Source: Pseudomonas mohnii | Lineage (GTDB): Bacteria > Pseudomonadota > Gammaproteobacteria > Pseudomonadales > Pseudomonadaceae | Direction of reading: 5' to 3' | Length of the DNA stretch: 64,000 nt | NCBI RefSeq assembly: GCF_900105115.1 | Contig: NZ_FNRV01000001.1 | Location: forward strand, 2,042,001 to 2,106,000 | Shown here: positions 23,352 through 47,642 of the stretch, piece after piece | Layout of the letters: every line of letters begins with the position of its first letter | Position numbering within the stretch: the first letter of the stretch is position 1 | Program-made: the position numbers and the translations under genes | Notes under the pieces: generated by a model | Seen by the model: only the letters and a program-made list of their open reading frames with translations | The model's database searches: none | Told to the model about the DNA's origin: nothing

Positions 23352-24077
23352 ATGGGTAAGCCATTGATCATCATCACCGGGGCCAGTTCAGGCATTGGCG
23401 AAGCCGCCGCTCGCTTGCTGAGCGCAGCCGGCCATCCGCTCTTACTGCTGGCCCGGCGGGTCGAACGCCTGCAAGCGCTCGATTTGCCGGACACCCTCAG
23501 CCGTCGCGTCGACATCACCGACCGCCCGACCCTGCTCGCCGCCGTGGCCGAAGCCGAAGCACAGTTCGGCCCGGCCGATGCGCTGATCAACAACGCCGGG
23601 GTAATGCTGCTGGGCGAGATGAGCAAACAGGACCCGGCACAGTGGGACCAGATGCTCGACGTCAATGTGAAAGGCCTGCTCAATGGCGTGCACGCGGTGG
23701 TGGCCGGGATGATCGAGCGCAAACACGGCACGATCATCAACGTCAGCTCGGTGGCCGGACGCAAGACATTCCCCAACCACGTGGCCTACGTCGGGACCAA
23801 ATTCGCGGTACATGGCCTGTCGGAAAACCTGCGGGAAGAACTGTCACCGCATAACGTGCGAGTCATCACCATCGCACCGGGCGCGGTAGAAACCGAACTG
23901 CTCGGCCACACCACCGATGAAGCGATCAAGACCGGTTACCAAGCCTGGAAACAGGACATGGGCGGTACCGTATTGAGCGCCGAAGATGTCGCATCAGCCA
24001 TCGCGTTTGCGTACCAGCAACCGCAGAACGTGTGCATTCGCGAGATCGTGATGGCGGCGACACGGCAGCAAAGTTGA
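23352..24077 (+). CDS. Short-chain dehydrogenase/reductase
   Basis: A 241-residue SDR. TGASSGIGEAAARLL (residues 9-23) is the cofactor-binding Rossmann motif, NNAG follows at about 80-83, the catalytic Ser lies in INVSSVAG (about 133-140) and YVGTK gives the YxxxK catalytic pair (about 150-154). The classical NADP-dependent group including YdfG/clavaldehyde-dehydrogenase-like enzymes fits. CAGGAG precedes the start. It is divergent from the LysR regulator and ends just before the tandem repeat array. Confidence 0.92.
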   Translation: MGKPLIIITGASSGIGEAAARLLSAAGHPLLLLARRVERLQALDLPDTLSRRVDITDRPTLLAAVAEAEAQFGPADALINNAGVMLLGEMSKQDPAQWDQMLDVNVKGLLNGVHAVVAGMIERKHGTIINVSSVAGRKTFPNHVAYVGTKFAVHGLSENLREELSPHNVRVITIAPGAVETELLGHTTDEAIKTGYQAWKQDMGGTVLSAEDVASAIAFAYQQPQNVCIREIVMAATRQQS

Positions 24078-24106
24078 CGGTCGTGCGGGTTTGATTGTGC
24101 AGAGAT

Positions 24107-24188
24107 GGCGTACATCTGTGGGTGATTGGTCGGCTGTCAGGCCGCCATCGCTGCGATGCGGCGCCCCGACGAGCCAGCTCCCACAGGA
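24107..24188. repeat. Left boundary unit of the 70-bp array
   Basis: A variant unit reading GGTGATTGGTCGGCTGTC, then CGCTGCGATGCGGCGCCCC and GACGAGCCAGCTCCC. The insertion around the palindrome replaces the GCTGGCAGGCCAGC of ordinary units. The same variant closes the array at the other end (25581-25663). Confidence 0.75.
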
Positions 24189-25580
24189 GAGCGGGTACAC
24201 CTGCGGATGATTGATCGGCTGATCGGCCGCCTTCGCTGGCAAGCCAGCTCCCACAGGAAAGCAGGTACACCTGCGGATGATTGATCGGCCGCCTTCGCTG
24301 GCAGGCCAGCTCCCACAGGAGAACGGGTACACCTGCGGATGATTGATCGGCTGATCGGCCGCCTTCGCTGGCAAGCCAGCTCCCACAGGACAGCGGGTAC
24401 ACCTGCGGATGATTGATCGGCTGATCGGCCGCCATCGCTGGCAGGCCAGTTCCCACAGGACAGCGGGTACACCTGCGGATGATTGATCGGCTGATCGGCC
24501 GCCATCGCTGGCAGGCCAGTTCCCACAGGAGAACGGGTACACCTGCGGATGATTGATCGGCTGATCGGCCGCCATCGCTGGCAGGCCAGCTCCCACAGGA
24601 GAACGGGTACACCTGCGGATGATTGATCGGCTGATCGGCCGCCTTCGCTGACAGGCCAGCTCCCACAGGAGAACGGGTACACCTGCGGATGATTGATCGG
24701 CTGATCGGCCGCTATCGCTGGCAAGCCAGCTCCCACAGGAGAGCGGGTACACCTGCGGATGATTGATCGGCTGATCGGCCGCCTTCGCTGGCAAGCCAGC
24801 TCCCACAGGACAGCGGGTACACCTGCGGATGATTGATCGGCTGATCGGCCGCCATCGCTGGCAGGCCAGTTCCCACAGGACAGCGGGTACACCTGCGGAT
24901 GATTGATCGGCTGATCGGCCGCCATCGCTGGCAGGCCAGTTCCCACAGGAGAACGGGTACACCTGCGGATGATTGATCGGCTGATCGGCCGCCATCGCTG
25001 GCAGGCCAGCTCCCACAGGAGAACGGGTACACCTGCGGATGATTGATCGGCTGATCGGCCGCCATCGCTGGCAAGCCAGCTCCCACAGGACAGCGGGTAC
25101 ACCTGCGGATGATTGATCGGCTGATCGGCCGCCATCGCTGGCAGGCCAGCTCCCACAGGAGAACGGGTACACCTGCGGATGATTGATCGGCTGATCGGCC
25201 GCCATCGCTGGCAGGCCAGTTCCCACAGGAGACCGGGTACACCTGCGGATGATTGGTCGGCTGTCGGGCCGCCATCGCTGGCAAGCCAGTTCCCACAGGA
25301 CAGCGGGTACACCTGCGGATGATTGATCGGCTGATCGGCCGCCATCGCTGGCAAGCCAGCTCCCACAGGAGAGCGGGTACACCTGCGGATGATTGATCGG
25401 CTGATCGGCCGCCATCGCTGGCAGGCCAGCTCCCACAGGAGAGCGGGTACACCTGCGGATGATTGATCGGCTGATCGGCCGCCATCGCTGGCAGGCCAGT
25501 TCCCACAGGAGAACGGGTACACGTGCGGATGATTGATCGGCTGATCGGCCGCCTTCGCTGGCAGCCCAGCTCCCACAGGA
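24189..25580. repeat. Tandem array of twenty 70-bp REP-containing units
   Basis: Twenty head-to-tail units, beginning near 24189, 24259 and 24321 and then every 70 bp (24391, 24461 and so on to 25511). Each comprises GGGTACACCTGCGGATGATT, a doubled TGATCGGC, GCCATCGCTGG, and the palindrome GCTGGCARGCCAGC with CTCCCACAGGA. The last part matches the local REP consensus. The second unit is 62 bp long because one copy of the internal 8-bp TGATCGGC repeat is missing, as expected from slippage. Unit length is not a multiple of three, and the open minus-strand frames simply cycle through the repeat in three phases. It is therefore non-coding. Confidence 0.92.
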
Positions 25581-25663
25581 GATTGGGGCAGCTGCAGGTG
25601 ATTGGTCGGCTGTCAGGCCGCCTTCGCTGCGATGCGGCGCCCCGACGAGCCAGCTCCTACAGA
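25581..25663. repeat. Right boundary unit of the 70-bp array
   Basis: Nearly identical to the left boundary unit over about 58 bases, including the GATGCGGCGCCCCGACGAGC insert in the palindrome, but with CTCCTACAGA at the end. Matching terminal units 1.47 kb apart show that the array expanded between two pre-existing related units. Confidence 0.75.
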
Positions 25664-25689
25664 AAAGCAAGGCCCACAACCCCGCTCTT

Positions 25690-26020
25690 CACCACTCATC
25701 AGGCCGAGCGTTAGCTCGCCTGCAGCTTTTGATCTTGATCCACCCGCCCCTTCGGAAGGCTGAATGGAGGTGTTCATCCGGGGAGTGGCGCGCAGCGCCG
25801 TTCGACGCAGTCGAACACGCTGCATGTAGGTTGAAGCGAAGCCAACCGGAGGGCAGTGTCCCCGGATGGACACCGCAGCGAAGGAACCCCGAGCCCCAGC
25901 GAGGGGCCGGACGCTCGGGGCGAGCCTTTTTTTGCTTATCTTTTTTTTGGCGTCTCCGGTCTGAAAAAAAAGTAAGTCGCCGTAAGGGCGAAACCATAGG
26001 CAGCCGTTACCGCAGCAACG
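25690..26020. repeat. Probable dispersed non-coding element
   Basis: About 330 bases without a credible gene. It contains GCCGAGCGTTAGCTCGCCTG, a GAACCCCGAGCCCCAGCGAG / GGGGCCGGACGCTCGGGGC hairpin, a T-rich stretch (CCTTTTTTTGC ... TTTTTTTTGGCG) and a GTAAGTCGCCGTAAGGGCGA hairpin. I recall near-identical text in many places in P. fluorescens-group genomes, where short frames in it are called hypothetical proteins; I could not verify this here. It sits immediately beside the 70-bp array. Confidence 0.5.
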
Positions 26021-26079
26021 GATATGTACACAATCAACCAGGAGCCCGGTCGGCCCAACGGCCGCCGATACACCCCATA

Positions 26080-27312
26080 TCACCTCAATGCCCTGAGCCG
26101 CCCCTCGATAAACCGCCGCTCCGGCTCCTGCCGGGTCAACTCCAGTGCCCGCTCATACGCCTGCCGCGCCTGCTCCACCCGCCCCAACTGCCGACAAAAC
26201 TCCGCCCGCGCCGAATGGGCCAAGTGGTAATCCTGCAGCTCACCGCGATCCAGAATCGCCTCGACCAGCGCCAGTCCCGCCAGCGGCCCATCCCGCTTCG
26301 ACAGCGCCGCGGCGCGGTTCAACTCGATCACCGGTGAAGGTACGGCGCGCAGCAACACGTCATACAGCCCGACAATCTGCGCCCAATCGGTTTGCTCCAC
26401 CGACGGTGCTTCGGCATGCACCGCCGCAATCGCGGCTTGCAGGCAATAGGGGCCGAATCGCCGCGTGCCCAGCGCCCGCTCCACCAACGCACAGCCTTCG
26501 GCGATCATCTGGCGGTCCCACAACGTTCGGTCCTGCTCATCCAGCAGGATCAGTTCGCCACTCGAAGACGTGCGCGCCGGACGCCGCGATTCGTGCAACA
26601 GCATCAGCGCCAGCAACCCCATCACCTCGGGCTCCCGCAACAGCTCCATGAGCAAACGACCGAGTCGAATGGCTTCACGGGTCAACTCTTCGCGGGTCAC
26701 CAGCGCGCCGATGGACGCCGAATAACCTTCGTTGAACACCAGGTAAATCACCCGTAACACGCTGTCGAGGCGTTCGGGCAGTTCCGCCAGGGTTGGCACC
26801 TGATAAGGGATTTTCGCGTCACGGATTTTCGCCTTGGCGCGCACGATGCGTTGGGCGATGGTGGCCGGCGCCGAGAGGAAGGCCCGGGCGATTTCTTCCG
26901 TGGTCAGGTCGCAGACTTCCCGCAGGGTCAGCGGCACCTGTGCGTCCGCCGCCAATGCCGGGTGACAGCAGGTAAAAATCAGCCGCAGGCGGTCGTCTTC
27001 CACGTCCTCGTCACTCCAGTCGGCCTGCTCCAGTGCTTCCAGTTGAGCAATCAACAGCGGACGAGACGCGGCGAAGCGGGCGCGCCGGCGCAACACATCA
27101 ATGGCTTTGAAGCGTCCGGTGGACACCAGCCACGCCCGCGGATTGTCCGGCACACCGTCCCGCTGCCAGCGCTCGACTGCAATGAAAAACGCCTCATGCA
27201 GGGCCTCTTCGGCGAGGTCGAAATCGCCGAGCAAGCGGATCAGTGTCGCCAGAATCCGTCGCGACTCTTCACGATAGACCTGCTCGACGCGCTCCTTGAC
27301 CGGCAACGTCAT
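26080..27312 (-). CDS. ECF42-type RNA polymerase sigma factor with TPR-like C-terminus
   Basis: A 410-residue sigma factor. Region 2 covers about residues 10-75 (ILATLIRLLGDFDLAEEALHEAFFIAVERW ... NPRAWLVSTGRFKAIDVLRR). Region 4 covers about 120-170 (LTLREVCDLTTEEIARAFLSAPATIAQRIVRAKAKIR). A long extension (~180-410, VFNEGYSAS ... HLAHSARAEFCRQLGRVEQARQAYERALELT) with TPR-like helices replaces an anti-sigma factor. This is the ECF42 (SigJ/DUF6596) type. Its stop precedes nothing else, and it follows the YCII gene by one base on the same strand, the conserved ECF42 pairing. Confidence 0.9.
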   Translation of the reverse strand: MTLPVKERVEQVYREESRRILATLIRLLGDFDLAEEALHEAFFIAVERWQRDGVPDNPRAWLVSTGRFKAIDVLRRRARFAASRPLLIAQLEALEQADWSDEDVEDDRLRLIFTCCHPALAADAQVPLTLREVCDLTTEEIARAFLSAPATIAQRIVRAKAKIRDAKIPYQVPTLAELPERLDSVLRVIYLVFNEGYSASIGALVTREELTREAIRLGRLLMELLREPEVMGLLALMLLHESRRPARTSSSGELILLDEQDRTLWDRQMIAEGCALVERALGTRRFGPYCLQAAIAAVHAEAPSVEQTDWAQIVGLYDVLLRAVPSPVIELNRAAALSKRDGPLAGLALVEAILDRGELQDYHLAHSARAEFCRQLGRVEQARQAYERALELTRQEPERRFIEGRLRALR

Positions 27313-46973: not shown

Positions 46974-47642
46974 ATGGAACATGCACTGAAGATCCTCGGT
47001 AAAGCCTCGTCGATCAACGTCCGCAAGGTCTTGTGGACGTGCGAGGAACTGGGTCTGTCCTACGAGCGTGAGGATTGGGGCAGCGGTTTTGCCTCGACCC
47101 ACAGCCCTGAGTTTCTGCGGCTCAATCCCAATGCAAAGGTGCCGGTGATCATCGATGAGAACGGGGCGCTGTGGGAATCCAACACCATCTGCCGTTACCT
47201 GGCCGGCAAACACCACCATCACCATGCCGAGCTGCTACCCACCGAACCGGCCGCGCGGGCCCGGGTGGAACAGTGGATGGATTGGCAGGCGATTGAGCTC
47301 AATCCGTCCTGGAGCCATGCATTCATGGCGCTGGTGCGCAAGGACCCGGAATTCCAGGACCCGGAATTCCAGGACCCGGAATTCCAGGACCCGCATCGAC
47401 TGGACGTCAGTGTGCGCGACTGGAACCAGAAGATGGGCATCCTCGAACATCAGCTGGCAACCACCAAGGCTTATGTGGCCGGGCCCACATTCACCTTGGC
47501 CGATATCGTCATCGGGCTGTCGGTCAATCGCTGGTTGATGACACCGATCGAGCGCCCCGATTACCCGGCCATCGATGAGTACTTCAGGCGTTTGGCGCAG
47601 CACCCCGGTTTTCTCAAGCATTGCTGCAACGGCTTGCCTTGA
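46974..47642 (+). CDS. Glutathione S-transferase
   Basis: A 222-residue GST. The N-terminal thioredoxin-like domain (1-80) contains KASSINVRKVLWTCEELGLSYERE, the cis-Pro in NAKVPVIID and the ESNTIC glutathione-binding Ser. The C-terminal helical domain starts near residue 90. Five consecutive histidines (AGKHHHHHAELLP) connect the domains and occur naturally. Residues ~124-140 contain three copies of DPEFQ, encoded by an exact 15-bp tandem repeat at 47343-47387, lengthening the helix 4 region compared with relatives that have one copy. Confidence 0.9.
   Translation: MEHALKILGKASSINVRKVLWTCEELGLSYEREDWGSGFASTHSPEFLRLNPNAKVPVIIDENGALWESNTICRYLAGKHHHHHAELLPTEPAARARVEQWMDWQAIELNPSWSHAFMALVRKDPEFQDPEFQDPEFQDPHRLDVSVRDWNQKMGILEHQLATTKAYVAGPTFTLADIVIGLSVNRWLMTPIERPDYPAIDEYFRRLAQHPGFLKHCCNGLP
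47343..47393 (+). repeat. In-frame 15-bp tandem triplication in the GST gene
   Basis: GACCCGGAATTCCAG is present three times without a mismatch, followed by a partial copy GACCCG. It adds DPEFQ repeats and keeps the frame, so copy number can vary without killing the gene. Confidence 0.95.

Follow-up and report, generated by a model that had tools for sequence, protein, structure and literature searches.

The array and its genomic setting

In the window, the 64,000-nucleotide stretch of Pseudomonas mohnii DNA analysed here, a short-chain dehydrogenase gene (23352..24077, + strand, Pfam PF00106) points its 3′ end towards a tandem repeat array, and a sigma factor gene with DUF6596 (26080..27312, − strand) lies convergent to it across a gap of 2.0 kb. 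This gap holds the array, hereafter array A, followed by a dispersed structured repeat of ~330 bp, module M (25681..26028 with its tail, + strand). Tandem Repeats Finder, applied to the window, placed array A at 24173-25629 with a period of 70, 20.9 copies and 93% matches, and cutting at the REP tail resolved the array proper (24180..25571, + strand) into 20 direct units (starts 24180..25502), each made up of a spacer, a CGGC-N6-GCCG hairpin and a REP of class PF14. The twenty-copy direct array of a 70-bp REP-based unit described in a sequence-only reading of this DNA is thus borne out. Nineteen units measure 70 bp and one (24250..24311, + strand) measures 62 bp; as that reading had also stated, the short unit lacks exactly one TGATCGGC, probably through a slippage deletion. 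Two copies of TGATCGGC per unit are indeed present, but the doubling looks like a local mutation of the hairpin GGTCGGC-TGTCAG-GCCGCC, which recurs in unit arrays of other genomes; the unit at 25222..25291 (+ strand), carrying GGTCGGCTGTCGGGCCGCC, retains a hairpin form near that found there.

Array A comprises 15 different unit sequences. Lettered by type, the array reads A B C D D E F G A D D E H I J K L M N O, and adjacent units differ at ~3 of 70 positions. Types C and A are separated by a one-base difference, and a six-unit block is partly seen twice (C D D E F G and A D D E H I), as expected from unequal exchange or multi-unit slippage. Together with the 62-bp unit, this block supports the slippage proposed earlier, in the form of slippage or unequal exchange. 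Diverged and longer edge units lie at the left (24108..24179, + strand, left boundary approximate) and at the right (25572..25662, + strand), both with a long-loop REP (CGATGCGGCGCCCCGACGA) whose two 34-bp stretches are identical; this exact sharing is unexplained by simple slippage.

The array REP, ATCGCTGGCA(A/G)GCCAGCTCCCAC, is the reverse complement of the class PF14 REP GTGGGAGCTGGCTTGCCAGCGAT given in Table 1 of Nunvar 2013 (PMC3686654), with A/G variation in the loop, and it has the PF14 hallmark of a GTGG/GTAG tag and a GAGCTGGCTTGCCAGC palindrome. The genome contains 165 PF14-like sites at ≤1 mismatch, and 0 for a reversed-pattern control. Elsewhere in the window, REPs (REP tail, ≤1 mismatch) stand singly or in opposed pairs, in agreement with the sequence-only reading. 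BIME-2 elements consist of REPs in alternating orientation; in array A every REP tail is on the + strand. The array therefore shares the REP building block with BIMEs and REPINs, but it is without the alternating or inverted REPs of the former and without the two inverted REPs in one hairpin of the latter.

Several other identities were considered for the array and rejected: a coding sequence, since the long minus-strand frames merely cycle (the argument made earlier, which we accept; the 561-aa minus-strand frame is a mechanical ORF), a CRISPR, since the spacer is nearly identical in all 20 units, and strict helical phasing of the units, the period being ~69-73 across genomes. The IHF binding consensus is WATCAANNNNTTR, and the suggestion of an IHF docking site did not hold, as the array has 0 exact matches and the 2 in the whole window both lie elsewhere. 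Folded as RNA, a single unit was no better than shuffles on the + strand (z −0.13) and weak on the − strand (z −1.82), and two units gave z −2.39. At another place in the window (47341-47393), a perfect 15-bp repeat (AGGACCCGGAATTCC) occurs in 3.5 tandem copies.

Beyond what the sequence-only reading had described, array A has sister arrays in its own genome and adjoins a module common to them. Array A (+ strand) lies at ~2.07 Mb, array B (C1:1096816-1097194, 5.4 × 70, + strand) at ~1.10 Mb and array C (C1:5492717-5493276, 8 × 70, − strand) at ~5.49 Mb; the three have a common unit and each is followed by a ~300-bp M sequence in the same orientation. Five M copies were detected in this genome (A, B, C, F and H), copy F being preceded by tandem ~105-bp units with another REP class and copy H by an opposed REP pair. 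Further tandem REP arrays in the genome have periods of 226 and 207, and two more (arrays D and E, C1:3996075-3997185 and 4528600-4529386) are built of tandem units with opposed REPs, at periods of 126 and 134. In three of the five M copies (B, C and F; L150, L148 and L149), a ~1.6-kb insertion, reversed in B, occupies the same M hairpin loop, which is empty of insertion in A and H. Two proteins of the insertion in B match the IS3-family model NF033516, and C has the same two ORFs.

Among 80 sigma-factor loci, several of which end at contig ends, the dehydrogenase adjoins the sigma factor gene in nine, with gaps of 118-196 bp that in seven of the nine contain, by eye, an inverted pair of other REPs. 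M is absent from all nine loci, so no function at this site is implied. The best sigma-factor match returned (97%) is that of P. moorei (L050), where the contig ends ~190 bp past the gene and the M tail is already present. An insertion-like sequence (CCCTTTCAAGG...) breaks the M tail at about the same place in L178 and L050. In Pseudomonas sp. HMWF021 (L097 5049-5731, a low-coverage contig), a 108-bp unit is repeated 6.3 times after the sigma factor gene, and this repeat seems to include the end of the dehydrogenase gene.

Repeats can mislead assemblies, and the P. moorei contig does end beside the sigma factor gene. An assembly artefact or chance repeat is nevertheless extremely improbable as the source of array A, given its 15 distinct units, the genes on both sides of it on a 6.48-Mb contig, and the sister arrays here and in other genomes. 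A search for the unit across Pseudomonas genomes, which had been proposed along with that doubt, recovered ~70-bp REP arrays elsewhere, some of them in single-contig genomes, with a unit number that varies between loci. No plasmid relative of the array was found at near identity.

Fold of module M and its polarity with the units

The core of M, modelled as R1 (25752..25876, + strand), is predicted to form a long stem enclosing further hairpins. Downstream of it lie a terminator-like hairpin with a T run (25913..25932, + strand), a long covarying hairpin (25935..25976, + strand) whose loop is the IS3-family insertion site mentioned above, and a second terminator-like hairpin on the opposite strand (25977..25991, − strand), both terminator-like features being pattern matches only. 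The M tail is followed by a unit-like hairpin, GGTCGGCCCAACGGCCGCC (26048..26066, + strand); such a hairpin follows 17 of 34 aligned copies, and a REP tail is found within 130 bp in 8 of 34.

These 34 copies derive from 74, of which two with matches <200 bp were dropped and 36 of the remaining 72 were kept after removing those ≥93% alike; B (insertion) and L178 (no tail found) were then omitted. On this non-redundant alignment RNAalifold predicted 76 pairs, with 98.2% of cells paired. Two-sided changes affected 23 pairs and 155 cells. Shuffles, which as controls on related sequences do not give probabilities, yielded 16.2 and 44.6, and slid controls did not exceed 9 and 24. The number of further pair types was not above shuffles (457 of 500 as high). 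The core folds at −58.6 kcal/mol with 41 pairs in the sense direction and at −39.8 kcal/mol with 32 pairs as complement, and the alignment has 229 G-U against 13 A-C cells for a structure that, being derived on the sense strand, favours G-U. Since the single-sequence fold reaches a z of only −2.35, the case for a conserved fold is made by covariation, which at the level of sequence comparison we consider established. No Rfam match was obtained at E up to 1 for 24070-26090. Terminator-like sites face both ways at the M end, with four counted over the stretch against a chance expectation of 1.0. A promoter-like site was not detected in 24000-26150. A protein-coding M was rejected, as no strand or frame stays open throughout the 34 copies, the best one doing so in 10.

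M was found in 120 of 298 Pseudomonas genomes by DNA search, with two candidates scored per genome, and in 57 of 119 genomes of the genus by covariance model under strict filters. Among 194 genomes of the order it was found in three, the own genome and two weak matches, one in the same genus and one in another genus of the family.

To describe the arrangement of units around M, a spacer profile was applied to 70 M loci (the window, 29 returned by the DNA search and 40 chosen from its list). The profile detected 110 upstream spacers running the same way as M and 2 opposed to it, with 9 and 0, respectively, downstream. The window supplies 21 of the 110, and without it the counts are 89, 2, 9 and 0 (69 loci). 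Because the profile was built partly from nine arrays that it then detected, the window and six other profile-building loci were also left out together, giving 61, 2, 9 and 0 (63 loci), and a profile made from the arrays of the own genome only gave 66, 1, 6 and 0 (69 loci, without the window). These counts establish a polar composite, in which n units precede M in its own orientation. A unit lies within 200 bp upstream in the orientation of M at 32 of the 70 loci and none was detected at 38, which argues that the array is not an obligatory part of the composite; zero counts are soft, as units may go undetected in diverged genomes. The longest run observed outside the window has 12 units (L162), in pieces that mostly extend ~1 kb upstream (median 965 bp), and in L215 the units continue up to the border of the piece. 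In L175 the head of M itself is repeated ~5 times with a 50-bp period, ~200 bp before M.

Orientation and placement of M on the chromosome

The sign of GC skew, measured in ten 20-kb pieces for each genome, served to assign replication direction, and 16 single M copies with disagreeing neighbouring skews were left out. Four fully listed genomes (G083, G057, G019 and G118) hold 128 M copies, 30-34 each, two weak overlapping matches having been left out. All 72 unambiguous single copies in these genomes run against the leading strand. Over eight genomes, with G132, G105 and G119 represented by copies among the matches listed, the rule holds for 97 of 99 unambiguous single copies, the two exceptions lying in G132 and G105, and in the own genome it holds for 5 of 5; the skew sign is opposite at arrays A and B (+) and at array C (−). 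As array and M share one orientation, the GTGG-tagged REP strand of the array would, by GC skew, lie on the lagging-strand template.

Inverted M pairs, 24 in G083, G057, G019, G118 and G105, have their heads facing, 23 at distances of 409-577 bp and one at 1681 bp, and each of them contains one copy in the disfavoured orientation. Two M cores are likewise present in 13 of 100 loci (for example L163, L174 and L176), head-facing in 12 and direct in one (L209). In L174, an inverted unit, a REPIN and a forward unit between the paired Ms form, by eye, a nested palindrome.

A near-absolute rule, combined with the tolerance of a disfavoured copy in every inverted pair, suggests that the orientation arises from how M originates at the replication fork, not from selection against the other orientation. 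It could instead be kept by selection. Orientation as a by-product of neighbouring genes was rejected, the association being too weak (upstream gene co-oriented in 40, opposed in 26 and uncalled in 8 of 74 loci).

The placement of M is also uneven. All 128 copies fall between 0.74 and 5.51 Mb on contigs of 6.5-6.7 Mb, which leaves the origin-proximal 29-30% of each contig in G083, G057, G019 and G118 free of M; the origin was placed near the contig start from the skew and, in G083, also by a DnaA-motif match. REPs are described as typically absent near the origin in Loper 2012 (PMC3390384).

This placement, the covarying fold and the terminator-like sites facing both ways would suit a selected host element, acting as a terminator in both directions or as a polar chromosome signal, in which the REP array would serve as a platform for gyrase or another protein. 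Gene context points the same way, as M loci are convergent in 21 and divergent in 8 of the 63 loci (of 74) called on both sides by a heuristic gene caller. We regard such an element as unlikely, however, since each inverted pair tolerates a disfavoured copy, the unit number ranges from 0 up, and a module found in only 57 of 119 and 120 of 298 genomes looks dispensable. M copies are also more alike within a genome (median identity 0.927, 23 pairs, the paralogs being best matches to the window copy) than at the same flank between genomes (0.85, 73 pairs), as if copies were exchanged or spread inside a genome and not kept up site by site; yet only at 9 of 18 loci does the best paralog surpass the best same-flank copy in similarity.

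Array growth and the nature of the composite

In arrays of ≥3 units, 72 of 94 units have their nearest relative in the same array, against a mean of 6.5 and a maximum of 19 after shuffling. In arrays L166 and L209 the units group no more tightly, or hardly more tightly, than background, which speaks against simple homogenisation. Clustering the M loci by downstream flank gave 12 groups, within which the unit number differs: 2 and 12 in L160 and L162; 4, 4-5, 1, 0 and 0 in L167, L168, L170, L194 and L197; and 1, 0, 4, 0, 0 and 0 in L173, L183, L190, L214, L220 and L223. M thus stays at a site while the array changes, and the resemblance of units to their array-mates, together with the differing unit number at the same flank, argues for local array expansion. 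We therefore favour, as reasonably probable, a reading in which a polar composite repeat, n units followed by M, has had its head expanded locally to give the array; array A itself is probably a passive expansion without a dedicated function.

Under this reading the composite would run from n ~70-bp units (spacer, small hairpin, REP) into the ~330-bp M, with its long hairpin and terminator-like end. The units would be multiplied where they stand, through slippage or unequal exchange among direct repeats that are rich in hairpins and may become single-stranded on the lagging-strand template. M would be spread or maintained by a process that senses replication polarity, and the composite might be tolerated between convergent genes because its end can stop transcription both ways.

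Head-to-tail growth could alternatively be the work of a RAYT, an HUH tyrosine transposase, which would act on the lagging-strand template, cutting REP top strands (5′-GTGGGAGC...) there in single-stranded form and joining units all one way. The direct units of array A and the predicted position of their GTGG-tagged strand agree with such a process, published work shows RAYTs cleaving single-stranded REP DNA and carrying out strand transfer on it (PMC8266576), and the tandem REP arrays of SBW25 switch orientation between ~2 Mb and ~4 Mb (PMC3116915). The genome also encodes two Y1_Tnp proteins (E≤0.001), RAYT-like, with REPINs alongside their genes. These REPINs, however, are of class PF16 beside one gene and PF18/PF11-like beside the other, and the exact PF14 pattern has 0 matches in both 4.5-kb loci, so that the search suggested earlier for a RAYT recognising the array palindrome yielded no cognate gene flanked by PF14 REPs at the two Y1_Tnp loci. 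PF14, a class of RAYT orthogroup IV, and PF16 fall in one orthogroup (PMC3686654), and a common RAYT lineage may formerly have acted on PF14; the REP sequence is exactly that of the published class, but here the REPs are direct, not in REPINs, and no RAYT stands beside PF14. Different REP classes are, moreover, mixed on one spacer within a single array (L166 and L177, by eye), and recombination alone explains both the local similarity and the block duplication. RAYT-driven joining is for these reasons doubtful, and expansion of the head of the composite by slippage or unequal exchange remains our preferred reading.

Transposition of the IS200/IS605 type, which proceeds through single strands, shows orientation relative to the replication strand, and in this respect M is alike. 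Unlike those elements, M has no frame open in all 34 copies, and a transposase linked to it was not identified; the IS3-family genes found in sister M copies belong to an insertion into M and are not a transposase of its own. It is possible, and we propose it tentatively, that unit and M together make up a separate class of mobile element in Pseudomonas, non-autonomous and consisting of a ~330-nt structured RNA or single-stranded DNA that has a terminator end and inserts in one orientation only relative to the fork, and at whose head REP units multiply.

Known repeats resemble parts of the composite. In SBW25, Bertels and Rainey 2011 (PMC3116915) reported evenly spaced direct REPs, which run forward at around 2 Mb and reverse at around 4 Mb; the even spacing is shared with array A, and opposite orientation on the two chromosome halves is also seen in arrays A, B and C. 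The SBW25 arrays differ in combining GI/GIII classes at 72 and 112 bp steps, or in having GI alone, and the account of them there describes no adjacent structured module or conserved spacer unit. Their orientations are an independent hint of the same strand rule, and the only one that searches of open-licence papers, PMC2718517 and PMC3116915 among them, brought up. The R200 intergenic repeat of Silby 2009 (PMC2718517), ~320 bp long with 47 copies in SBW25, 0 in Pf0-1 and 8 in Pf-5, may be M, to which it is close in size and copy number; the passages on R200 there mention neither a strand rule nor unit arrays. Within the portions of the open-licence literature covered, we did not find the unit, the M fold, the unit-M polarity or the strand rule described, nor the sequence letters of the unit or of M.

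Tandem REP arrays have been known since 2011, with their orientation given at that time without a cause in the account cited (PMC3116915). By tying such an array to a folded module of near-absolute orientation, the composite offers a testable handle on REP-like multiplication at the fork, on one strand, and M, detected in 120 of 298 sampled Pseudomonas genomes, is itself a candidate structured element without an Rfam match. If unit and M do form a distinct class of mobile element, insertion into one arm of the replication fork, or priming there, would have left the strict strand rule (72 of 72) as its footprint.
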